The notes beneath the pieces are model-generated. The model did not search any database. It was not told the DNA's origin and was given only the letters and a program-made list of their open reading frames with translations. From Planctomycetia bacterium (GTDB lineage Bacteria > Planctomycetota > Planctomycetia > Pirellulales > UBA1268), in the NCBI GenBank assembly GCA_021414115.1, contig JAIOPD010000134.1, forward strand, positions 1 to 33,672: DNA of 33,672 nucleotides. The letters run 5' to 3'. The number at the start of each line of letters is the position of its first letter. Position 1 is the first letter of the stretch. This document shows, piece after piece, positions 2,474 to 24,870 of this stretch. The position numbers and the translations under genes were made by a program.

Positions 2474-3424
2474 CGGAGGCCACGGCATGCCGAGGCTCTC
2501 GGCTGAGGCGAGTGCCACCGCGAGGTCGGCGGCGACGCGGGCGTTGTTGAGGAGGAGCTTCTCGTTCGTCCTCACGCTCGCGCCGCCGGTGAGGGCCCGC
2601 ATCCGGTCGAGGAGATAGGGCGTGACGTCGCGGCCGCTGACCTCGATCGCCTCCGCGAGCGCCGTGCCGAGCGCGGAGTCGTGGAGATCCTTCGGCAGGG
2701 CGTCGGCTTCGGGTACGGGATTGGCGATTACGAGCCCCGCCGTGAAGCCGAGGTCGAAGTGCGTGCGCACCGCACGGGCCAGATCGGCCATCGTGTCGCA
2801 GCGGCGATCCACCCGGAGCCCGCTCTCGCGGCGATAGAAGGCCGGGAACTCGTCCGTGCCCACGCCGAGGATGGGCACGCCGAGGGTCTCGAGCATCTCG
2901 ACGGTCCGCGGCAGGTCGAGGATCGCCTTCGCCCCGGCGCAGACCACGGCCACGGGATACCGCGACAGGGCCGTGAGATCCGCAGAGACGTCGCCTGTCT
3001 CGATCGCGCCGCGGTGCACGCCGCCGATGCCTCCGGTGGCGAACACGCGGATGCCTGCCTTCGAGGCAGCAAACATCGTCGCCGCCACGGTCGTGGAGCC
3101 GCAGCCACCGGCCGCCACCTCGGCGGCGAAGTTGCCGAGGTTGACCTTCACCGGATTCGCTGCCGCCGCGAGCCGCGTCAGGTCGGCCTGAGTGATGCCC
3201 ACTTTGACGCAGCCGTCGAGAATGCCGATCGTGGCCGGCGTCGCGCCTCCCGCGCGGACCGCCTCCTCGAGTGCTGCCGCCACCCGCTCGCCGTCGGGCT
3301 GCGGCAGGCCGTGCGTCACGAGCGTGGTCTCGAGCGCCACCACGGGCCTGCCGCTCGTGATCGCAGCGGCGACCTCGTCGGACACCGAAACAAAACGGCC
3401 CAGGATTTTGTGAACCATGTCCAT
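2423..3424 (-). CDS. psuG: Pseudouridine-5'-phosphate glycosidase
   Basis: This 333-residue protein matches PsuG, which cleaves the C-C glycosidic bond of pseudouridine 5'-phosphate to uracil and ribose 5-phosphate in pseudouridine breakdown. Visible signatures are VVALETTLVTHGLPQP (Glu31), KVGITQADL, GGCGSTTVAATMF, FATGGIGGVHRGA, CAGAKAILDLP with Lys166 at the position of the E. coli catalytic lysine, and TDEFPAFYRRESG. The family domain ends near residue 312 at ARVAADLAVALA. The remaining tail, including REARSGSDGK, is encoded by repeat copy A, so the stop codon has been supplied by the repeat. No pseudouridine kinase gene is visible nearby. It is divergent from the hydrogenase beta gene, with about 100 bases between starts. 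Confidence 0.93.
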   Translation of the reverse strand: MDMVHKILGRFVSVSDEVAAAITSGRPVVALETTLVTHGLPQPDGERVAAALEEAVRAGGATPATIGILDGCVKVGITQADLTRLAAAANPVKVNLGNFAAEVAAGGCGSTTVAATMFAASKAGIRVFATGGIGGVHRGAIETGDVSADLTALSRYPVAVVCAGAKAILDLPRTVEMLETLGVPILGVGTDEFPAFYRRESGLRVDRRCDTMADLARAVRTHFDLGFTAGLVIANPVPEADALPKDLHDSALGTALAEAIEVSGRDVTPYLLDRMRALTGGASVRTNEKLLLNNARVAADLAVALASAESLGMPWPPAREARSGSDGKAGGSP

Positions 3425-3524
3425 CGGTGTACCAGACGGCCCACGCGACGGGGAGCGGCTGAGGTTGCATCCCGGGGCTGCACCGCCGACAGTTGAGGCT
3501 GGTCACCCGCCGCCCGAGGCTCCG

Positions 3525-4742
3525 ATGCCCGCACCTTTACTCCCCGTCGGCTCCTGGCACAGACTCGACCATGCGGGCCTTCAGGCGGTGGTCGACGTGC
3601 TCTGGAGTGCGGGACATCGCGTGGTGGGGCCGCAGGTGGCCGACGGGGCGATCGTGATTCGCGATCTCCGCGGCGTGGCTGAGTTGCCCACCGGCTGGCT
3701 CGACGATCAAGACGGCGGCTCCTACCGGCTCCGGTACGATCCCGCCGCCGGCACCTTTGATCACGTCGTCGGCCCCCACTCGCTCAAGAACTTTCTTTTT
3801 CCCGCGCGGGAGACGATCGCGTCGTTCGTCCAGCTCGACGGCTCGTGGAGTCAGACGCCTCCCCCCGCGCAGGCGCCCCCGTTGGCGGTGCTCGGCGTGC
3901 GCGGCTGCGACCTGGCGGCGCTGGCGATCCAAGACCGGGTGTTTCTCGGCAGCGGGTATGTCGACGAGGCTTACAAGCAACGGCGTGAGAAACTCTTCCT
4001 CGTCGCGGTCAACTGCCGGCGGGCGGCCGCCACTTGTTTCTGCCACTCGATGGGGAGCGGGCCGGCCGCGGGACCGGGGTTTGATCTGGCGCTCACGGAG
4101 ATCGAGGGCGGCTTCACCTGCGAGGTGGGGAGCCACCGCGGGGCGGCGGTGCTTGCGGAGGCGGTCGCGGCAGGAGCGGCGCTCGGTGGCTGCTCGACAG
4201 AAGACGTCGAGGCGGCGCGGGAAGTCTCGCAGGCGCTGGCAACGCGGATGCATGCGCGGCAGCAGGTGGGCGGCGAACCCAAGCCCCGCAGCCTCGACAC
4301 CCACGGTATCCGCGATCTCTTGATGACGAATCTCGAGCATCCCCGCTGGGACGAGGTTGCCGCGCGGTGCCTCTCCTGTACCAACTGCACGCTCGTCTGC
4401 CCGACCTGCTTCTGCTCGTCGGTGCAGGAAGTGGCCGACCTCTCCGGCGATCACGTCGATCGCGAGCGGCAGTGGGCGAGCTGCTTCTCGCTCGACCATG
4501 CCCGGATGCACGGCCACAGCGTGCGGAGTTCGACGGCCGCCCGGTATCGCCAGTGGCTGACGCACAAGTTCGCCGGCTGGATCGACCAGTTCGACACATC
4601 GGGCTGCACCGGCTGCGGGCGTTGCATCACCTGGTGCCCCGTCGGCATCGACGTCACCGAGGAGATCGCCGCGATTCGGGCGACCGCTGGCGGCGGTGCG
4701 TCGCAGGCAGATGCGTCGCAGCCCGGGGAGGCTGCGTCATGA
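3525..4742 (+). CDS. hydB: Group 3b-type [NiFe]-hydrogenase beta subunit (4Fe-4S dicluster protein)
   Basis: This 405-residue protein resembles the beta subunit of Pyrococcus-type sulfhydrogenase and the related sulfite reductase A subunit. Two ferredoxin-type cluster motifs lie at the C-terminus: C282-x2-C285-x2-C288-x3-C292 (CLSCTNCTLVCP) and C361-x2-C364-x2-C367-x3-C371 (CTGCGRCITWCP). The N-terminal half contains LKNFLFP and GVRGCDLAAL, which are typical of this family. It passes electrons between the small subunit and the flavin-containing gamma subunit in the cytoplasm. The frame is open from 3417, but ATG 3525, with GAGG five bases upstream, gives the usual N-terminus. The gamma gene starts at an ATGA overlap. 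The delta and alpha genes that normally follow are 6.3 kb away. Confidence 0.88.
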   Translation: MPAPLLPVGSWHRLDHAGLQAVVDVLWSAGHRVVGPQVADGAIVIRDLRGVAELPTGWLDDQDGGSYRLRYDPAAGTFDHVVGPHSLKNFLFPARETIASFVQLDGSWSQTPPPAQAPPLAVLGVRGCDLAALAIQDRVFLGSGYVDEAYKQRREKLFLVAVNCRRAAATCFCHSMGSGPAAGPGFDLALTEIEGGFTCEVGSHRGAAVLAEAVAAGAALGGCSTEDVEAAREVSQALATRMHARQQVGGEPKPRSLDTHGIRDLLMTNLEHPRWDEVAARCLSCTNCTLVCPTCFCSSVQEVADLSGDHVDRERQWASCFSLDHARMHGHSVRSSTAARYRQWLTHKFAGWIDQFDTSGCTGCGRCITWCPVGIDVTEEIAAIRATAGGGASQADASQPGEAAS

Positions 4743-5596
4743 GCGGCCCTTCGTCCGATGCCGCCTCGCGGGAGAACCCCTGGCGATCGCATGCCGCGCG
4801 GATCCGCTCGATCGTGCCCGAGTCGCCGGGCGTGCAGACCTATGAACTGGAGTTCGAGGAGGTGCTCGTACGCGATTCCTACCGATTCGCCGCCGGCCAG
4901 TTCAACATGCTCTACCTGCCGGGGATCGGCGAGGCGGCGATCTCGGTGAGTTCAAATCCCGCCGATCGGAGCTCGCTTGCCCACACCGTCCGCGCCGTGG
5001 GCAACGTCACCGATGCGCTCGCCCGGCTCGGCCTCGGTGGTCAGGTCTTCGTCCGCGGCCCCTTCGGAACACCGTGGCCCGTGACCGACGTGATCGACCG
5101 CAACGTCGTGATCGTGGCGGGCGGCCTGGGCCTGGCTTCGCAGCGGGCCGCGATTCTCTTTCTGATGGCAGAACGGGCCTGCCGCTCCGTCACGGTGCTC
5201 CACGGTGCCAAACGACCCGAGGGGCTGCTCTATGGCCGCGAGTACGATGCGTGGCGGGCGGCCGGGGTCGCCGTCCACACGATCGTCAACGAGGCCGACG
5301 CGTCGTGGAGCGGCCCGGTCGGTCTCGTCACCGACCTGCTCACGGACGCGCTCCGCGATCCATCTGCCACGACGATCCTCTGCTGCGGACCGGATCCGAT
5401 GATGGTGGGCGTGGCCAAGGCCGCGATCGGGCGGGGCGTGGCCGCGGACGACGTCTTTCTTTCGCTGGAGCGAAACATGGCCTGCGCCGTGGCCCACTGT
5501 GGCCTCTGCCAGTTTGGCCCGCTCTTCGTCTGCCGCGACGGCCCGGTGCTCCCCTACGAGCGGATCGCGGACCTCATGCGGATTCCGCAGATGTAA
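4739..5596 (+). CDS. hydG: Group 3b-type [NiFe]-hydrogenase gamma subunit (FAD / NAD(P)-binding)
   Basis: This 285-residue protein is a ferredoxin-NADP reductase-like flavoprotein, the diaphorase subunit through which such hydrogenases use NAD(P)H. Visible parts are the FAD region FAAGQFNMLYLPGIG followed by AISVSSNP, the nucleotide-binding GGLGLASQRAAI, the CGPDPMM signature, and a C-terminal [2Fe-2S] site with Cys249, Cys254, Cys257 and Cys265 (CAVAHCGLCQFGPLFVC). It starts at ATG 4739, overlapping the beta stop codon by four bases, so translation is probably coupled. A repeat copy and a Rho-independent terminator follow, so this half-operon appears to end here. Confidence 0.9.
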   Translation: MSGPSSDAASRENPWRSHAARIRSIVPESPGVQTYELEFEEVLVRDSYRFAAGQFNMLYLPGIGEAAISVSSNPADRSSLAHTVRAVGNVTDALARLGLGGQVFVRGPFGTPWPVTDVIDRNVVIVAGGLGLASQRAAILFLMAERACRSVTVLHGAKRPEGLLYGREYDAWRAAGVAVHTIVNEADASWSGPVGLVTDLLTDALRDPSATTILCCGPDPMMVGVAKAAIGRGVAADDVFLSLERNMACAVAHCGLCQFGPLFVCRDGPVLPYERIADLMRIPQM

Positions 5597-11857: not shown

Positions 11858-11887
11858 TTGTCCTTGCCGTGGGCAAACCGCGATAAT
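11858..11887 (+). promoter_or_regulatory. Candidate sigma-70 promoter for the hydrogenase delta-alpha genes
   Basis: TTGTCC (11858-11863) and GATAAT (11882-11887) are separated by 18 bases and lie about 50 bases upstream of the delta-subunit ATG, just beyond repeat copy C. The match is moderate and rests on the general bacterial consensus only. If real, it explains how delta-alpha is expressed independently of beta-gamma. Confidence 0.3.
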
Positions 11888-11935
11888 GCCGAGGAACCTT
11901 TTCGCGGCACACCCTCGGGATTCGGGCTCTTCACG

Positions 11936-12718
11936 ATGATCCCCAAACCTCGCCTCGCCGTGTTCAAGTTCGCCTCGTGCGACGGCTGCCAGTTGCAGCT
12001 GCTCGAGGCCGAGGACCGGCTGCTCGAGATCGCCGCGAAGGTCGAGATCGATCACTTTCTCGAGGCGCGGTCGCAGGTCGTGCCCGGCCCGTACGATGTC
12101 GGGCTCGTGGAGGGCTCGATCACGACGGCCGAAGACGCCGAGCGGATCCGGGAGATCCGCCGCCAGTGCCGGTTCCTCGTCACGATCGGTGCCTGCGCGA
12201 CGGCAGGCGGGATCCAGGCCCTGCGAAACTGGGGGCGGATCGAGGACTTCGTGTCGAGCGTCTATGCCACGCCGGCCTTCATCGACACGCTCGCCACGAG
12301 CACGTCGATCGCCGACCATGTGCCCGTGGACTTCGAGCTCCGTGGCTGCCCGATCGACCGTGGCCAGCTCCTCGATCTGATCACGGCGCTGGTTCTCGGC
12401 CGCAAGCCTCACGTGCCGGGGCACAGCGTGTGTGTCGAATGCAAGGCCCGTGGCACGGTCTGCGTAGCTGTGGCCAAGGGAATCGCCTGCCTCGGGCCGG
12501 TCACCCAGGCGGGCTGCGGCGCGATCTGCCCGGCCCACGATCGCGAATGCTTCGGCTGCTTCGGCCCGAGCGAGTCGCCAAACCTCGTGAGCCTCACCGG
12601 CTTCTACGAGCATCGCGGCACGCCCCGCCACACGCTCGTGCGGCTCGTGCGGTCGTTCAACGGCTATGCCCCCGCGTTTCGGGCGGAGAGCGACCGGCTG
12701 GAGGCGAAGTCGACGTGA
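11936..12718 (+). CDS. hydD: Group 3b-type [NiFe]-hydrogenase delta (small) subunit
   Basis: This 260-residue protein is the Fe-S small subunit of a cytoplasmic [NiFe]-hydrogenase. It lacks a Tat signal and starts directly with the proximal cluster motif [13 protein letters not shown] (Cys15, Cys18), followed by [32 protein letters not shown], and a Cys-rich C-terminal part ([37 protein letters not shown]) that would hold the remaining clusters. The missing signal peptide and absence of a membrane anchor gene fit a soluble group 3 enzyme. ATG 11936 is the first start giving the family N-terminus; the open frame upstream is repeat copy C. The alpha gene begins at a GTGA overlap with its stop. 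Its beta-gamma partners lie 6.3 kb upstream. Confidence 0.92.
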
Positions 12719-14010
12719 GCACGATCCGACGGTTCAGCGTGAAGTCGCTCACCCGCGTCGAAGGGGAGGGCTCGCTCCGCGTCCGCGTGGTCGACGGAGC
12801 GATCGAGATCGCCGAGTTTTCGATCTACGAGCCGCCACGGTTCTTCGAAAGGCTCGTCCGCGGCCGCGAAGTCCGCGAGGTGCCCGACATCGTGGCGCGA
12901 ATCTGCGGCATCTGCCCGGTGGCCTATCAGGTGACGGCCTGCGAGGCACTGGAGAAGACCCTGGGAATCGCCGTCACGCCCGACATCCGCCGACTCCGCC
13001 GGCTGCTCTACTGCGGCGAGTGGATCCAGAGCCACGCCCTCCATGTGCACCTGCTCCACGCGCCGGATTTTCTCGGTGCCGAGAGCGGCTTCACGCTCGC
13101 CGCGACGCATCCGGATCTCGTGAACCGCGGCCTGCGGCTCAAGAGCATCGGTACCCGGATGATGGAGGTGATCGGGGGCCGCGCGGTGCACCCGATCAAC
13201 GTCACGGTCGGGGGTTTTTATCGCAGCCCGGCGGCGGCCGACATCCGCGGGCTGTTGCCCGACCTCGAGTGGGGGCTCGCCGCGTCGCTCGAGATGATCA
13301 CCGAGGTGAGCCGATTCGACTTTCCGGGCATGCCGCACGACTACGACTGCGTGTCGCTGCGGCCGGCCGCGGGCTATCCCGTCGACGAGGGGCGGATCGT
13401 CTCGAGCCGCGGGCTCGACGTCGACGTGGCCGACTACGAGCGGCACTTCGCGGAACGGCAGGTGCCGTGGAGCACGGCGCTGCACAGCCTGACCGTGCCC
13501 GACGAGCGGCCGTACCTCGTGGGGCCGCTCGCCCGGGTCAATCTCTGCCACGACCGGCTGCCCCCCCTGGCTCGCCGGGCCGCGGAGTCGTGCGGGCTCG
13601 AGTTTCCGCTGCGGCTTTCCGCGCAGAGCATCGTGGCCCGGGCGATCGAGATCGCGGCGGCCTTCGAGGAGGCGGTCGGAATCGCGCGGGAGGCCGTGGC
13701 GGAGATCGCGCCCTGCCGCATCGACTACGACCTTCGACCGGGCGTGGGCTGCCACGCCACCGAGGCGCCGCGCGGACTGCTCTATCACCGCTACGAGATA
13801 GGTGATGATGGACTGATCGCCCATGCGAACATCGTGCCGCCGACGTCGCAAAATCAGGCACAGATCGAGGCCGATCTCAAGGCGATCCTGCCCACGGCGC
13901 TCGTGCTCGACGACGCCGCCGCCACCCATGCCTGCGAGCGGCTGATCCGTGACTACGACCCGTGTATCAGCTGTGCCACGCACTTCCTCAGGCTCGCCAT
14001 CGAACGGTAG
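12715..14010 (+). CDS. hydA: Group 3b-type [NiFe]-hydrogenase alpha (large, catalytic) subunit
   Basis: This 431-residue protein carries both nickel-binding motifs: L1 [11 protein letters not shown] (Cys64, Cys67) and L2 DPCISCATH (Cys417, Cys420, His423). Other family parts are [15 protein letters not shown] at the N-terminus and [15 protein letters not shown]. Eight residues (FLRLAIER) follow His423 and would be the tail removed by the maturation endopeptidase after nickel insertion. The L1 form with Pro-Val-Ala-Tyr fits group 3b (NADP-linked, sulfhydrogenase family). The start is GTG 12715, overlapping the delta stop codon by four bases. It converges on hypE with about 70 bases between. 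With delta, gamma and beta it would catalyse reversible H2 oxidation coupled to NAD(P). Confidence 0.93.
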
Positions 14011-16757: not shown

Positions 16758-17105
16758 TCATGCGGGCTTCACCCAGACGACACCCGCCGTCACCCGCAGC
16801 GGAAACGGCTCGAGCCGGCACTCCGGCTTGGAAAGGCAGTCGCCGGTGTCGGTGTCGAACCGAAAGCCGTGCCACGGGCAGGTGATCGTGCCGGCCTCAG
16901 AATCGCACATCCCGCGGTCGAGCGGCAGGCCGACATGGCCGCAGGCGTTGCGGAAAGCGCGGAGTTCGTCCTTCACGCGGAGCACGAGAATCTTCGCGCC
17001 ACCTCCCTCGAAGGCCGCCGGCTTGGCGGCCGTCACGTCGGCGACCTTCGGACCCTCGTACCATCCGCTCGTGTCTTCCGGCAGGCGCGGCTGGACCGGT
17101 TCCAT
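16758..17105 (-). CDS. Small Rieske-type [2Fe-2S] ferredoxin
   Basis: This 115-residue soluble protein carries a complete Rieske site, Cys55-x-His57 (ACGHVGLPLD) and Cys76-x2-His79 (CPWHGFRFD), followed by the DTGDCLSKP segment seen in dioxygenase-type Rieske ferredoxins. It has no signal peptide or membrane segment, so it acts in the cytoplasm as an electron carrier or as a domain partner. It lies upstream of hypC on the same strand, with a 171-base gap. Rieske proteins occur in some hydrogenase gene clusters, and its position suggests a link, but no oxygenase or obvious partner is adjacent. Confidence 0.88.
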   Translation of the reverse strand: MEPVQPRLPEDTSGWYEGPKVADVTAAKPAAFEGGGAKILVLRVKDELRAFRNACGHVGLPLDRGMCDSEAGTITCPWHGFRFDTDTGDCLSKPECRLEPFPLRVTAGVVWVKPA

Positions 17106-18707: not shown

Positions 18708-20159
18708 TCAGGCGAGAATCTCCGCCACGACACGCGCCGGCTCCACGCCGGTGAGCCGGAAGTCGAGCCCCGCGAAGCGATGGGTGAGCCGCTCGTGGTC
18801 GATCCCCAGCAGGTGCAGCACCGTGGCGTGCAGGTCGCGGACATGCACGCGGTTTTCGGTGACGTTGTAGCTGAAGTCGTCGGTTGCGCCGTACGTCATG
18901 CCCGGCTTCACGCCGCCGCCGGCAAGCCACATCGTGAAGCACCGGGGGTGGTGATCGCGGCCCGCCTCGGCGGTCTGCCAGTTGCCCTGTCCCGCGACGC
19001 CGCGACCGAACTCGCCCCCCCAGATCACGAGCGTGTCGTCGAGGAGACCGCGGCGGTCGAGGTCGATCAGGAGCGCCGCGGTGGGCTGGTCGGTATCGCG
19101 ACAGCGGGCGGTGCACCAACTCGCGAGGCGACTGTGGTGGTCCCAGTCGGGATGAAAGAGCTGGATGAACCGCACGCCCCGCTCGGCGAGGCGACGGGCG
19201 AGGATGCAGTTGGCAGCGTAGCTGCCGGGCCGCCGCGAGTCAGGGCCGTACAGAGCGAACGTTTCCTCGGTCTCGTCCGCGAGGTCCACCAGGTCCGGCA
19301 CGCTCGCCTGCATCCGATAGGCCATTTCGTATTGGCGGATCCGCGTCTCGATCTCGGGATCGCCCGTGGCCGCATGTCGCAGCCCGTTGAGCTCCGCGAG
19401 GCCGTCGAGCATACCGCGGCGGAGTTCGCGCGGCAGGCCGGCGGGGTCGCCGAGGTCGAGCACCGTGTCGCGGGCGTTTCGCAGTTTCACGCCCTGGTAA
19501 CGGGAAGGAAGGAATCCCGCGCCCCAGTAGTGGTCGTAGAGCGGCTGATCGCTGGGCCGTTGCATCTTCGAGACCATCACCAGGAAGTCGGGCAGATCGC
19601 GGTTCTCGCTGCCGAGCCCGTAGCTCACCCAGGCGCCCATCGTGGGCCGGCCCGGGATCTGGTTGCCGGTGAGAAACTGTGTCATCGCGGGGGCGTGGTT
19701 GATCTGGTCGGTGTGCATGCTCTTGATGAAGCAGCACTTGTCTGCCACCCGCGCCAGATGCGGCAGCCACTGCCCCACGGTCGCTCCGCTCCGCGGGCAG
19801 CGCGTGAACGTCACCTTCGCCGGCATGACGAGCTGCTTTTGATTGGCCGTCATCATCGTCAGCCGTTGTCCTTGCCGCACCGACTCGGGCAGTTCCTGGC
19901 CGGCCCACTTCACGAGATCGGGCTTGGCATCGAAGAGCTCGAGTTGCGACGGGCCGCCCGACTGCGTGAGAAAGATCACCCGCTTGGCCCGCGGGGCGAA
20001 GTGTGGCAGTCCGGGCAGGCCGACGGCGTCGCCGGCCGCGTGGCCTTCCCGGGCAAGCAACTGGGCAAGCCCCATGGCGCCTATCGAGAGCCCCGTGCCG
20101 CGCGCGAGAAAATGCCGCCGTGTGACCGCGAGGCCACGGTCCTCGTGTTCGTCATTCAT
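18708..20159 (-). CDS. DUF1501 domain protein (Tat-exported, sulfatase-like fold)
   Basis: This 483-residue protein belongs to the DUF1501 family. It has a Tat-like leader with TRRHFLARG (Arg14-Arg15) and a following hydrophobic stretch. Family signatures are KRVIFLTQSGGPSQLELFD, MHTDQINHAPAMTQFLTG, RPTMGAWVSYGLGSEN, FHPDWDHHSRL, DDTLVIWGGEFGRG and GRDHHPRCFTMWLAGGGVK. The family is related to sulfatase/alkaline-phosphatase-like enzymes, but its reaction is not established. Its start overlaps the end of the PSCyt1/DUF1553 gene by eight bases. This pairing is a well-known planctomycete arrangement, and the two products are presumed to work together in the periplasm. Confidence 0.93.
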   Translation of the reverse strand: MNDEHEDRGLAVTRRHFLARGTGLSIGAMGLAQLLAREGHAAGDAVGLPGLPHFAPRAKRVIFLTQSGGPSQLELFDAKPDLVKWAGQELPESVRQGQRLTMMTANQKQLVMPAKVTFTRCPRSGATVGQWLPHLARVADKCCFIKSMHTDQINHAPAMTQFLTGNQIPGRPTMGAWVSYGLGSENRDLPDFLVMVSKMQRPSDQPLYDHYWGAGFLPSRYQGVKLRNARDTVLDLGDPAGLPRELRRGMLDGLAELNGLRHAATGDPEIETRIRQYEMAYRMQASVPDLVDLADETEETFALYGPDSRRPGSYAANCILARRLAERGVRFIQLFHPDWDHHSRLASWCTARCRDTDQPTAALLIDLDRRGLLDDTLVIWGGEFGRGVAGQGNWQTAEAGRDHHPRCFTMWLAGGGVKPGMTYGATDDFSYNVTENRVHVRDLHATVLHLLGIDHERLTHRFAGLDFRLTGVEPARVVAEILA

Positions 20160-23100
20160 GGGTGAGGGCCTCGTCGAGGTTGAGGATCAGGCTCGCCACC
20201 AGCGTCGCCGTGGCTCGCTCGGCTTGGTCCGCCGCCGCGGCCGGCACGGGAAAAAGATCGCCAGGATCGGTGGCATCGAGCAGCGCGGCGGCATCGGCGG
20301 GATACCTGGCGTAATACTCCCGGGCCCGCGCGGCCTCGCGATCGAGCACCAGCCGCTCGCTCGCAGCAGGCTCCCGAAACAACACGCCGCGAAACATCGC
20401 CACCGGGACGCGGTCCCTTTCCGCAAGGGCCCGTGCCGCCTCCAGGTAGATCGCATCGTTCAAGAGCGTGAGCGCCTGCAGGGGCGTGTTGGTGCGCGGC
20501 AGCCGCACCTCGCAGCTCCGCCGCTGGGCCGAATCGAACAGAAAGGTCGGCGCGATCGCCCGCCGCCAGAAGGCGTAGAGCGTGCGGCGATGCTGGGCCG
20601 GCCCTTCGCTGGGCTCGTAGGTAAATCTTCCCATGAACATCTCCTCCCACACCCCCGCCGGCTGCCAGGGCTTCACCGGCGGGCCGCCGAGGGCGGGATT
20701 GAGCAGGCCGGCGACGGCGAGCGCCTGATCGCGGAGCATCCAGCTCGGCAGGCGATGCCGGGCGCCGCGAGCCAGCAGGCGATTGTCCGGATCACGGGCC
20801 AGCCGCTCGGGTGACACGTCCGACGCCTGCCGGTAGGCGCGGCTCGTGACGATGAGGCGGCAGAGCCGTTTCACGTCCCAGCCATGCTCGACGAAGTCCA
20901 CGGCCAGCCAGTCGAGAAGATCGGGATGCGTCGGCCGTTCGCCCTGCAGTCCAAAATCCTCGACGGTGCGGACGAGGCCAGCGCCGAAGAAGAGCTGCCA
21001 GACGTGGTTGACGATCACGCGTGCGGTCAGCGGGTTCGTCGGTCCCACGAGCCAGTTGGCCAGATCGAGCCGCGTGGCAGGGCCGCTGGGCAGCATCTTT
21101 GAAAACGAGCCGAGCACCGCGGGCGTTCCCGGTGTCACGGCGTCGCCCTTCGCGTCCCACACCCCGCGGAGGAGCACATGCGTGGTCCGCGGCTGCGGGC
21201 GTTCGGCGAGCACCATCACGTCCACGTTTACCGCCGCCTTGGCCTCGGCCAGTTGTCTGCTGGCCCGGTCGGCCACCCGCTTCGCGATCTGATACGGCTC
21301 GTCATCGGCCAGAAACTGCTCCCGCAGCCGGTCGCGGAGCGGCCGAACGACCAGCGGAGGATCGGTCGTGCCGGCCGCGAGCGCGGCAGCGAGTTGCTCC
21401 AGCGGTGCAGGCTCCACGCTCGCCACGGCAGGCCCCGCCTGGTCGGTCACCGACACGCGAAACCGCCCGATATTGGCGTCGCCCCGGGTGGACCGCTGCC
21501 GCAGTTCGAACACGAGTTCCTCGTCGGCCTCGAGCACGAGCGGCTCCCGCAGGGCGAGCACGGCCGTATGGCTCGACGCGGCCGCCGCATCCCGCACGCC
21601 CCAGCCGTTGCGCGGATCATCGTCGAGCACGCCGCCGATGCTGCCATAGTTGTCGTGCTTCTTGGGATCATCGGAATGGTCGGCAACGGCGCGGGCGAAC
21701 GGTATCTCGCGGACCTGCGAACTGCCCCGCTTGGTCACCCGCAGCTTCACGTCGGTGAGCGTGAACTGGCCTGAGTCGCCGCGCGAGAAGAGCCCATGCG
21801 CGTGCGACTCGTGCGTGAACACCTCGAGCTTCAGGCCCGTGACCCGCGGGCGGGACGCCGGCGCCGTGACGAGGTAGTCATCCTGCGGGGGGGTCGGCCC
21901 GTGTGTCTGGATCATGCCGTCGGTCTCGACGGCGAAGAGCGTGCCCTCGGTCGATTCGACACCGCTCGGCTCGAGCGGCCGCCAGGCGGTGAAGCCACCT
22001 GCCTTCACCACTGCCGCCGTCTGGTCGGCGAGCCACGCTTCAAACCGCCCCTCCGCCTGACGGCGTGCTGCATCGACCGCCGGCGTGCGGGCGTCGACGA
22101 GCCGCCGCGCCTCGGCGACGGCTCGCGCGACATGGGGCGACGTGACGGCGAGGTACGGAGTGGCACCGCGGCCGGCGGCGCCGGTCTCGTCGATCGAATC
22201 GAAGAAGGCGTTGAGCTGGTAATAGTCGTGATGCGTGACGGGATCGTACTTGTGGGAGTGGCACTGGCAGCAGCCGACGGTAAGCCCCAGCCAGAGCGTG
22301 CCGAGCGTGTTGGTCCGGTCGATGACGTAGTCGATCCGCGATTCCTCCGGATCGCGGCCTCCTTCGCCGTTAGTCATGTGGCTGCGATGGAAGCAGGTGG
22401 CGAGCCTTTGCTGGGGCGTCGCGTCCGGCAGCAGGTCGCCCGCACATTGCTCGACGGTGAAGCGGTCGAACGGCATGTCGGCATTGAAGGCCTCGACCAC
22501 CCAGTCGCGCCACGGCCAGTTGGTGCGGTCGGCGTCTCCCTGGAAGCCGTCGGTGTCGGCATAACGGGCCGCGTCGAGCCACCACATCGCCATCCGCTCG
22601 CCGAAGTGCGGCGACGCGAGCAGGTCGTCCACGAGCCGTTCGTATGACGCCTCGGACGAGTCGCGCGTGAGCGACTCCGCCTGTTCGCGGCTTGGCGGCA
22701 GGCCGACGAGGTCGAAAGCGAGCCGGCGGGCGAGCGTGTGCGGCGGCGCCCGTGGCGCGAAGGCGAGGTCCTCCGCGGCGAGTCGCGCTCCGATGAACGC
22801 ATCGATTGGATGCGGATGCCCGGCGGGAGGCGGTATTTTCACCGGTCGCTCGAAGGCCCAGTGGGTGCCCCATGCCGCTCCCTCGGCGATCCACCGGGTC
22901 AGCACGTCCACCTGCTCTTGTGAAAGCGGCTTCTTGTGAGAGGAGGGGGGCGGCATCTGCACGTCGGGATCGGTGGCGACGATCCGGGCGATGAGTTCGC
23001 TCTCGGCGGGTGCGTCAAGCGAGATCACGGCCAACGCACCCTCTCGGGTGTCGAGCCGCAGGTCGGCCTCCCGATGCCCCTCGTCTGGTCCATGGCAGGC

Positions 23101-23229
23101 GAAGCAGTTCTCGGACAGGATGGGCAGCACGTCGCGGCTGAACCGTACCGGCTCTGCCGTGATGGCACCCATGCCGAGCGCGTTGACCGCGATGGCAACG
23201 GCGACGTGGAACAGGATCGGTATCCTCAT
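20152..23229 (-). CDS. PSCyt1 / PSCyt2 (DUF1549) / DUF1553 planctomycete cytochrome protein
   Basis: This 1025-residue exported protein starts with a hydrophobic signal segment. A planctomycete cytochrome domain (PSCyt1) follows, with a c-type haem site C42-x2-C45-H46 (NCFACHGPDE) and the distal MPPP region. The DUF1549/PSCyt2 domain covers about 140-345 (PHFGERMAMWWLDAARYAD, FDRFTVEQCAGDLLPD, CCQCHSHKYDP). A middle part of about 430-590 resembles a ligand-binding beta domain. The DUF1553 domain covers about 690-960 (RLDLANWLVGPTNPLTARV, NHVWQLFFGAGLV, TNTPLQALTLLND). It is translationally linked to the DUF1501 gene by an 8-base overlap. Biochemical role is unknown; it is thought to be a periplasmic polysaccharide-related oxidoreductase. 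Confidence 0.93.
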   Translation of the reverse strand: MRIPILFHVAVAIAVNALGMGAITAEPVRFSRDVLPILSENCFACHGPDEGHREADLRLDTREGALAVISLDAPAESELIARIVATDPDVQMPPPSSHKKPLSQEQVDVLTRWIAEGAAWGTHWAFERPVKIPPPAGHPHPIDAFIGARLAAEDLAFAPRAPPHTLARRLAFDLVGLPPSREQAESLTRDSSEASYERLVDDLLASPHFGERMAMWWLDAARYADTDGFQGDADRTNWPWRDWVVEAFNADMPFDRFTVEQCAGDLLPDATPQQRLATCFHRSHMTNGEGGRDPEESRIDYVIDRTNTLGTLWLGLTVGCCQCHSHKYDPVTHHDYYQLNAFFDSIDETGAAGRGATPYLAVTSPHVARAVAEARRLVDARTPAVDAARRQAEGRFEAWLADQTAAVVKAGGFTAWRPLEPSGVESTEGTLFAVETDGMIQTHGPTPPQDDYLVTAPASRPRVTGLKLEVFTHESHAHGLFSRGDSGQFTLTDVKLRVTKRGSSQVREIPFARAVADHSDDPKKHDNYGSIGGVLDDDPRNGWGVRDAAAASSHTAVLALREPLVLEADEELVFELRQRSTRGDANIGRFRVSVTDQAGPAVASVEPAPLEQLAAALAAGTTDPPLVVRPLRDRLREQFLADDEPYQIAKRVADRASRQLAEAKAAVNVDVMVLAERPQPRTTHVLLRGVWDAKGDAVTPGTPAVLGSFSKMLPSGPATRLDLANWLVGPTNPLTARVIVNHVWQLFFGAGLVRTVEDFGLQGERPTHPDLLDWLAVDFVEHGWDVKRLCRLIVTSRAYRQASDVSPERLARDPDNRLLARGARHRLPSWMLRDQALAVAGLLNPALGGPPVKPWQPAGVWEEMFMGRFTYEPSEGPAQHRRTLYAFWRRAIAPTFLFDSAQRRSCEVRLPRTNTPLQALTLLNDAIYLEAARALAERDRVPVAMFRGVLFREPAASERLVLDREAARAREYYARYPADAAALLDATDPGDLFPVPAAAADQAERATATLVASLILNLDEALTHE

Positions 23230-23315
23230 GCCGGAATTCTTTCAGACGGCGGCCGGTCCGTCTTGCATCGCGCTCCGAGCGGCATGGTACGATTTGACCA
23301 TCTCGGAGACACGGC

Positions 23316-24086
23316 ATGCCCGGTTCTTCTTCCCGCACTCCCACAGAGTCCGCCGCCTTCCAGCGGGAGTTCTTCGCGCGGTGCCCGCAGGCGAAATCGC
23401 TGATGCGGCTCTTCGACGCGCTGCCGCAGACCTATTTCTTCGCGAAGGACCGCGACAGCCGGTTCGTGGCCGTGAACCACATGTTTCTCGACAACCATGG
23501 GCTCACCGACGAAGCGCAGGCGATCGGCAAGAGCGACCGCGATCTTCACCCGCCGCTCATGGCCGAGGCCTACATCGCCGAAGACCGCCGCGTGATGCAG
23601 TCGCGGCAGCCGCTCCCGGGGCAGGTGTGGGCGGTGCTCCACCGCCGTACGGCACCCCGCTGGTATGTCTGCACCAAGACGCCCATCTTCGGCCCCGACG
23701 ACGCGGTGCTCGGGATCGCCGGGGCGATGTACCGTATCGACGATCCCAAGGTCCTGACCGACTACTTCCAGGAACTCATGCCCGTCGTTCGGCACGTCGA
23801 TCGCCACTTTGCCACGACCGTCTCGATGGCGGAGATGGCGAAACTCGCGGGCCTCTCGACGACTCACTTCAATCGACGGTTCCGCCAGCTTCTGCGGATG
23901 ACGCCGTCGCAGTACCTCCGCACGGTTCGCGTGCAACACGCCCGCGGCTTGCTCACGACCACCGACAAGCCGCTGACGGCGATCGCCGCTCTCACCGGCT
24001 TTACCGACCAGAGCCACTTTACCCGTCGTTTTCGGCAGACGACCGGCCTCACTCCCGAGGCCTACCGCCGCCGATTCCGGCAGTGA
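23316..24086 (+). CDS. AraC-family transcriptional regulator with N-terminal PAS domain
   Basis: This 256-residue protein has a PAS-like sensory domain (about 29-145: LPQTYFFAKDRDSRFVAVN, IGKSDRDLHPP, WYVCTKTPIFGPDD) followed by a C-terminal AraC double helix-turn-helix (about 155-253: MAEMAKLAGLSTTHFNRRF, then AIAALTGFTDQSHFTRRF). It is divergent from the PSCyt1/DUF1553 gene with an 86-base spacer, so it probably controls that divergent operon. This arrangement is common in planctomycetes. The ligand is unknown. Confidence 0.92.
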   Translation: MPGSSSRTPTESAAFQREFFARCPQAKSLMRLFDALPQTYFFAKDRDSRFVAVNHMFLDNHGLTDEAQAIGKSDRDLHPPLMAEAYIAEDRRVMQSRQPLPGQVWAVLHRRTAPRWYVCTKTPIFGPDDAVLGIAGAMYRIDDPKVLTDYFQELMPVVRHVDRHFATTVSMAEMAKLAGLSTTHFNRRFRQLLRMTPSQYLRTVRVQHARGLLTTTDKPLTAIAALTGFTDQSHFTRRFRQTTGLTPEAYRRRFRQ

Positions 24087-24102: not shown

Positions 24103-24645
24103 TCATGACGGAGAGCCGTCGCCCGGCATGTCGCCCACCGGCTGTGGGCGAGGAATCGAGGCGGCGGCCGCGGGGGCCACTGCGGGCCCGGCCCCGACCT
24201 TCGCGAGCAGGAGATCGGCGAGCCGATCGACCGCCGCATCGACCGCCGGCGAGAGGCCTTCGCCGATCTCGTATCGCTCACCCTCGATCAGGTAGGCGGT
24301 GACGTTTTTCGGATAGTCGTCCTTGAGCAGCCAGTGGCCGAAGGCGATCGCGTGATCCCAGCGGAAGGAGTGAAGGTTGATGCCCGTGTGCGGCGGCAGG
24401 TTTTCGACCTCGTGACCGGGCACCTCGAAGAGCGAACCCGGATCGCTTCCCGACGAGCAGGCGTCGACGAGAATCACCTCCGGCACGCCCCGCATCTGAA
24501 AGGCCACGTCCATGCCCCCCGTGCCGCCGTCGGCGCACCGCACACCGTCGGGCAGGCCGCGTTCCCGCAACCGTCGCACGAGCACCGGCCCGGCGGCATC
24601 ATCGCCGCGGAGGAGGTTGCCGCAGCCGATAATCAGCGTCCGCAC
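24103..24645 (-). CDS. [NiFe]-hydrogenase maturation endopeptidase (HybD/HupW type)
   Basis: This 180-residue protein resembles hydrogenase-specific endopeptidases, which cut the C-terminal tail of the large subunit after nickel insertion. It shows LIIGCGNLLRGDDAAGP, and its Asp16, Asp61 (VILVDACSSG) and His92 (NLHSFRWDHA) line up with the nickel-sensing Glu16, Asp62 and His93 of E. coli HybD. The Ala/Pro-rich tail (from about 150) is extra. The start is GTG 24645 giving MRTLIIG. It follows the relic of a hydrogenase large subunit by only three bases, so it was probably that enzyme's dedicated protease. It may now serve the group 3b alpha subunit, or it may be an orphan. Confidence 0.9.
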   Translation of the reverse strand: MRTLIIGCGNLLRGDDAAGPVLVRRLRERGLPDGVRCADGGTGGMDVAFQMRGVPEVILVDACSSGSDPGSLFEVPGHEVENLPPHTGINLHSFRWDHAIAFGHWLLKDDYPKNVTAYLIEGERYEIGEGLSPAVDAAVDRLADLLLAKVGAGPAVAPAAAASIPRPQPVGDMPGDGSPS

Positions 24646-24648
24646 ACA

Positions 24649-24870
24649 TCACCCCATTTCGCCGATGCGGAACTTCGCCAGTTCGCGGCCTGTCTTGCCA
24701 TCATAGGTGTGCACGGTGCAGACGAGGCAGGATTCGTAGGAACGGGCCACATGCCCCATCTTCGCGTCCTGCGGGCCGATGTTCCAGGCGGTGGTAACGA
24801 CACCGTCGGTGACCCCGATCCGAAGGTCGAGATCCCCCTCGACGCGTCCCGGCGAATTCCGATTTGGTAA
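24649..24870 (-). pseudogene. Relic of a second [NiFe]-hydrogenase large subunit (N- and C-terminal ends joined)
   Basis: One frame of 73 codons ending at TGA 24649-24651 carries an N-terminal large-subunit signature (NSPGRVEGDLDLRIGVTDG), then at once the near-C-terminal TTAWNIGPQD and GHVARSYESCLVCTVH. The latter contains the second nickel-binding CxxC and His. The central several hundred residues, including the RxCGxC motif, are absent. The first part resembles cyanobacterial-type uptake hydrogenase (HupL, group 2a) and the second part the CLVCTVH form of groups 2a/1h, so it differs from the alpha subunit at 12715-14010. No ATG or other good start is visible; a different frame just upstream reads TKVYQI, suggesting a frameshift near the original start. 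The intact endopeptidase gene follows directly. Confidence 0.78.

Follow-up and report, generated by a model that had tools for sequence, protein, structure and literature searches.

Why does an intact gene for a hydrogenase maturation protease follow a frame in which the two ends of a hydrogenase large subunit are joined, and which enzyme might such a protease serve? The locus that raises this question lies in the window (the whole stretch of 33,672 nucleotides that we analyzed). Our overall reading, which we hold with high confidence, is that the frame is a decayed hucL gene of a Huc-type hydrogenase whose maturation protease has been kept under selection, most likely processing HydA of the group 3b enzyme.

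The hucL relic and its parent enzyme

The frame is composed of segments that align with intact hucL genes of related genomes, among them G013 and G021, as follows.

24649 to 24854, minus strand: hucL relic, three collinear pieces of a [NiFe]-hydrogenase large-subunit gene in a single open frame
24783 to 24854, minus strand: piece 1, hucL start, nucleotides 44 to 115 of the G021/G013 gene (GRVEGDLDLRIGVTDGVVT); blastn, 85% to G021, E = 3e-17
24759 to 24794, minus strand: piece 2, near the hucL 3' end, nucleotides 1409 to 1444 (TAWNIGPQDAK); blastn, 94% to G021, E = 3e-10
24649 to 24761, minus strand: piece 3, hucL 3' end with stop codon, nucleotides 1511 to 1623 (MGHVARSYESCLVCTVHTYDGKTGRELAKFRIGEMG, then stop); blastn, 88% to G021, E = 8e-37

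The relic translates from the minus strand as GRVEGDLDLRIGVTDGVVTTAWNIGPQDAKMGHVARSYESCLVCTVHTYDGKTGRELAKFRIGEMG, ending at a stop codon at 24649-24651, and it lies in a stop-to-stop frame of 102 codons. The fragment itself recovered no match among Pfam profiles and only weak hydrogenase matches (E = 0.001) among NCBIfam profiles. The blastn E values against intact relatives are such that the similarity is not due to chance, and they bear out the initial annotation, which had described the frame as a fusion of the N and C termini of a hydrogenase large subunit. With the intact hucL of G021 as the reference, 1,305 and 69 nt have been deleted from inside the window's gene, both multiples of three. 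Alignment of the first junction shows a GCCTGGA run common to both sides, and pieces 1 and 2 overlap at this short homology; at the second junction, which parts GPQDAK from MGHVARS, the homology is about three bases. Thus, the joined ends and their origin by deletion at short homology were correctly recognized from the outset, but there are two junctions rather than the one proposed. The native hucL start codon falls outside the retained pieces and is lost from the window; no ATG, GTG, or TTG occurs in the relic frame before an internal ATG at 24757-24759. Of the nickel ligands, the C-terminal CLVC is retained and the CGIC region is gone. As the CGIC and CxxC ligands do not stand in one full-length chain, the window's copy is a pseudogene and not a working hydrogenase.

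A draft genome in 144 contigs could in principle have acquired such a structure through the assembler joining unrelated reads at short repeats, and the junction homologies are indeed short. However, assembler word sizes are far larger than homologies of 3 to 12 nt, changes extend to the start codon and several other positions, hucS and half of hucE are also gone, and similar decay is seen in four other, separately assembled genomes. We therefore regard an assembly artifact as extremely unlikely.

The intact large subunit of G013 matched Mycobacterium smegmatis Huc (HucL) with 870 bits in a structure-chain search, the next best match having 221 bits; the small subunit of the intact parent matched HucS with 589 bits. 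The structures concerned (PDB codes 7UTD and 7UUS) are those of M. smegmatis Huc, a group 2a enzyme (PMC10017518). Group 1h was considered as an alternative parent and was ruled out by the same search, in which HofG of Ralstonia eutropha reached 127 bits against the 870 bits of Huc. Judged by sequence, then, the relic descends from hucL, which encodes the large subunit of a [NiFe]-hydrogenase of group 2a (Huc type), in agreement with its first description as group 2a-like. Huc (HucL/HucS; PMC10017518, PMC7784904) is by far the best match of the relic's intact relatives and has operon features in common with them, namely, hucS, hucL, hucE, an NHL-repeat gene, and maturation genes. In contrast to Huc, the window holds fragments alone and no functional hydrogenase.

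Decay of the huc operon in related genomes

Using the protease gene as a guide, we located the orthologous place in 60 related genomes, which are drafts and mostly metagenome assembled. An intact large subunit directly before the orthologous protease, which the initial annotation had suggested looking for, was found in G013, G021, G011, and G028 (hucL of 539 to 541 residues). It is preceded by hucS in G013, G021, and G028; the hucS of G011 is on another contig, and the large subunit of G008 is divided between two contigs. In G013, two more open reading frames lie 3' of the protease, hucE and an NHL-repeat-like gene, of which the window retains only part of the first.

16758 to 17105, minus strand: hucE remnant, C-terminal Rieske half; open 115-codon frame; tblastn of the G013 HucE frame aligns residues 186 to 317 only

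HucE consists of a NifU-like and a Rieske domain and is required for Huc activity in M. smegmatis (PMC6883350); the NifU-like half is absent from the window. The suggested search for a matching small subunit elsewhere likewise recovered no hucS in the window's genome (a 95% complete draft), in which the only PF00374 matches are two segments, both belonging to the group 3b alpha subunit. Hence, whereas the relatives present the huc context of hucS, hucL, protease, and hucE, the window has the protease and half of hucE without hucS. This fits the proposal that a second, different hydrogenase was lost and one was kept: the group 2a Huc-type enzyme is gone and a group 3b enzyme is retained. A second protease or huc copy could sit in the part missing from this draft (144 contigs, 95% complete).

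Among 72 genomes of the family, five relics in total were found, that of the window and those of four congeners, with no breakpoint in common. In G014, hucS has a 96-nt in-frame deletion, the native hucL start is joined to approximately codon 263, and there is a further deletion of 381 nt. In G015, a fusion joins the hucS start to the hucL end; G016 retains three small hucL pieces, the middle one out of frame; and G002 has just the last 285 nt of hucL, with the conserved C-terminal His replaced by Arg. The G014 locus (L023) has long open frames that represent a different stage of decay and that automatic annotation would call genes: hucS with its in-frame deletion at 643-1518 and a 153-codon hucL with a native start at 1556-2017.

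No huc relic was found in G020, G025, G027, G032, or L091, all of which have the protease in the same position, and a search of these genomes for hidden relics gave nothing convincing. L091 is close to G028 by its protease, yet has no huc remnant. From about 700 to 10 bases before the L091 protease, a gene resembling UreH/HupE-type metal transporters occupies the space after hypA that hucSL takes up in relatives; the end of such a gene is also present upstream of the G015 relic and before the G032 protease.

The retained C-terminal end

In all five relics, the C-terminal 35 to 37 codons stand in an open frame, as might be expected if the frame encoded a functional mini-protein of the hydrogenase C terminus (CxxC plus cleaved tail), e.g., a decoy or regulator of the protease. 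Over the 32 codons of the retained end, dN/dS by pairwise counts, rough values given so few codons, is 0.05 to 0.14 for intact pairs, and the window's copy stands at 0.06 versus G021 and 0.35 versus G013. The low value versus G021 suits a mini-protein, but recent loss would give the same value; it indicates that either the loss in the window is recent or the retained end is still weakly constrained. The five N-terminal structures differ, with native starts in G014 and G015 and none in the window. The last His is replaced in G002, and there are many amino acid changes in G016, G015, and G002 (dN/dS versus G021 of 0.50, 0.36, and 0.29, respectively, i.e., about 0.3 to 0.5). The five genomes or loci without a relic do without it at the same protease position. 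We consider a mini-protein very unlikely on these grounds. A conserved family of intact short proteins, which had been named as the finding that would speak for one, did not emerge; instead, the five relics have five structures, and three of them have key residues relaxed or lost. Since the congeners' relics have different breakpoints, the relic is a decay stage, repeated in the genus, and not a conserved mini-protein.

Seven of the nine deletions over the relics are in frame (two in the window, three in G014, and two in G015), the two of G016 being out of frame. Selection for the reading frame was set aside as a cause: among repeats of at least 8 nt in the intact genes, 76% of those within genes and 80% of those between hucS and hucL are in phase, rising to 90 to 92% for repeats of at least 10 nt, and this alone predicts in-frame joins. 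Because in-phase repeats dominate in these GC-rich genes, frame-keeping deletions are not evidence of function.

The C-terminal piece might instead be kept as DNA, the hucL 3' end carrying the ribosome binding site of the protease gene or coupling its translation, such that longer deletions would silence the protease. We entertain this possibility tentatively; it refines the favored explanation and is not its opposite. In intact relatives, the protease start overlaps the hucL stop or lies almost next to it (TGATG in G021; ATGA in G011 and G008), and exactly this end is kept in all relics, the native starts of G014 and G015 being fused to it in frame. However, L091 has the protease with other upstream sequence and no huc remnant, so that the piece can be dispensed with; in-frame joins would be common regardless (76 to 90% of repeats of 8 to 10 nt or more being in phase); and sequence beside a selected gene is the last to go, with no further reason needed. 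The hucL end probably holds the translation start region of the protease, which would account well for its retention, with a replacement in L091.

The orphaned protease and the group 3b hydrogenase

The genes that bear on the present role of the protease are the following.

24103 to 24645, minus strand: hydrogenase maturation protease, huc operon type, intact; Pfam HycI, E = 1e-12, 48.3 bits (cut-off, 23); TIGR00072, E = 1e-37
12718 to 14010, plus strand: group 3b large subunit (alpha); NF040828, 252 bits; C-terminal tail after the last His
11870 to 12718, plus strand: group 3b small subunit (delta); NF040831, E = 8e-46; start approximate
3417 to 5596, plus strand: group 3b beta and gamma subunits; NF040833 and NF040835
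24960 to 25340, plus strand: hypA, divergent from the relic; TIGR00100
25337 to 26026, plus strand: hypB; TIGR00073

The group 3b genes of the window are split, with about 6 kb between beta/gamma (3417-5596) and delta/alpha (about 11870-14010) that contains an Lnt-like gene and, on the opposite strand, a long amidohydrolase frame; they are contiguous in G016, G028, and G032. Between the protease and hypCDE (18708-24086), the window has a DUF1501/PSD1-type pair, named from sequence, and an AraC-like regulator, none of which the examined relatives show at this position.

The protease starts with a GTG at 24645, three bases past the relic stop, and its HycI profile match upholds the earlier remark that an intact protease gene lies three bases downstream. 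It resembles the HybD/HycI/HupW proteases in belonging to the HycI Pfam family, in its D-G-G-T motif (DGGTGGMDVAFQM), and in its position directly after a large subunit; it is unlike them in that its own hydrogenase is gone and the remaining large subunit is of group 3b. A search of GTDB contigs recovered the same protease directly 3' of hucSL in nearly all loci examined, from Acidobacteriota, Gemmatimonadota, Chloroflexota, Actinomycetota, Bacillota, and Planctomycetota, among others. In the protease tree, the window's copy falls beside those of G014 and G016 in a supported clade (99/97) with hucSL-adjacent proteases, although long branches among the 3b-type proteases leave the order of events at the base unsure. 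This clade and the position after hucSL show that the window's protease is the lost Huc enzyme's own, as the initial annotation had supposed. Gene order had suggested an ancestral 3b protease of the locus, which the clade rules out for the window; the proteases of G020, G027, and G032 fall just outside it and may be of ancestral 3b origin.

In the genomes without a huc trace (G020, G025, G027, and G032; loci L030, L031, L034, and L033), the DGGTGGMDVAFQM motif, which lies close to the proposed specificity region, has changed (e.g., DCGTGGIDAALAM in G032 and DAATAGIDVALAM in G027), as if released from HucL. The G008 protease (L040, 1138-1824) aligns as two segments of 86% and 56% identity, all in one long frame; the roughly 190 additional bases that part them may be an insertion.

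Among the relic species (the window's species, G014, and G016), the protease has a dN/dS of 0.06 to 0.14 and is thus under purifying selection (dN/dS of about 0.1). It might nevertheless persist merely because its loss has not yet happened, with no role in the window's species, and the relic does look recent in this lineage. We consider this unlikely, as the gene is intact with low dN/dS in the relic species and is also open in lineages without a huc trace (G025 and L091). In the favored explanation, hucS and most of hucL were deleted, short direct homologies marking the two deletions inside hucL, and selection has kept the downstream protease; the protease would now process HydA of the surviving 3b enzyme, which has a C-terminal tail of the kind that such proteases remove.

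We consider it probable that the 3b large subunit is a substrate of the protease and the reason for its survival, since no other HycI-family protease was found in the window's genome and the 3b tail is retained; where their ends are readable, all 3b large subunits end in DPCISC(A/S)TH followed by a tail, and the tails are conserved. Wherever a HycI protease was matched, the genome has just one, including the genomes that hold both Huc and 3b enzymes (G011, G013, G021, G028, and G008). This is most simply explained by a single protease that serves, or once served, both hydrogenases. Somewhat less firmly, we favor the view that this group 2a-operon protease also matures the group 3b hydrogenase, first alongside Huc and then alone after its repeated loss. 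In G007, G017, G035, and G036, all draft genomes, a 3b hydrogenase is present and no HycI-family protease was found, which either reflects missing contigs or weakens the case for sharing. The published view that each such protease is specific for a single type of hydrogenase (PMC2670836) counts against a group 2a protease that acts on a 3b enzyme; the same work notes a scattered placement of 3b proteases in trees. A precedent for one protease acting on two hydrogenases is the exchange of HycI and HyfK between hydrogenases 3 and 4 in Escherichia coli and Pectobacterium (PMC7654741), but the enzymes there are close relatives, whereas groups 2a and 3b are distant.

Beyond the initial annotation, we find two deletions and a lost start in the relic, a hucE remnant, decay that has recurred within the genus, and a probable cause of the protease's survival. 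Taken alone, the pseudogene is ordinary; the interest lies in the protease, which has been orphaned and is probably shared. One genus of Planctomycetota, Pirellulales-like to judge from those relatives that bear names, has huc operons both intact and broken in five different ways, and clean losses are seen in nearby genera, so that the loss of a trace-hydrogen-oxidizing enzyme can be traced stepwise. The set offers a natural test of maturation protease specificity. If true, a shared protease would amount to a natural exception to the one-protease-one-hydrogenase rule, and such sharing could help explain the scatter of 3b proteases in published trees.
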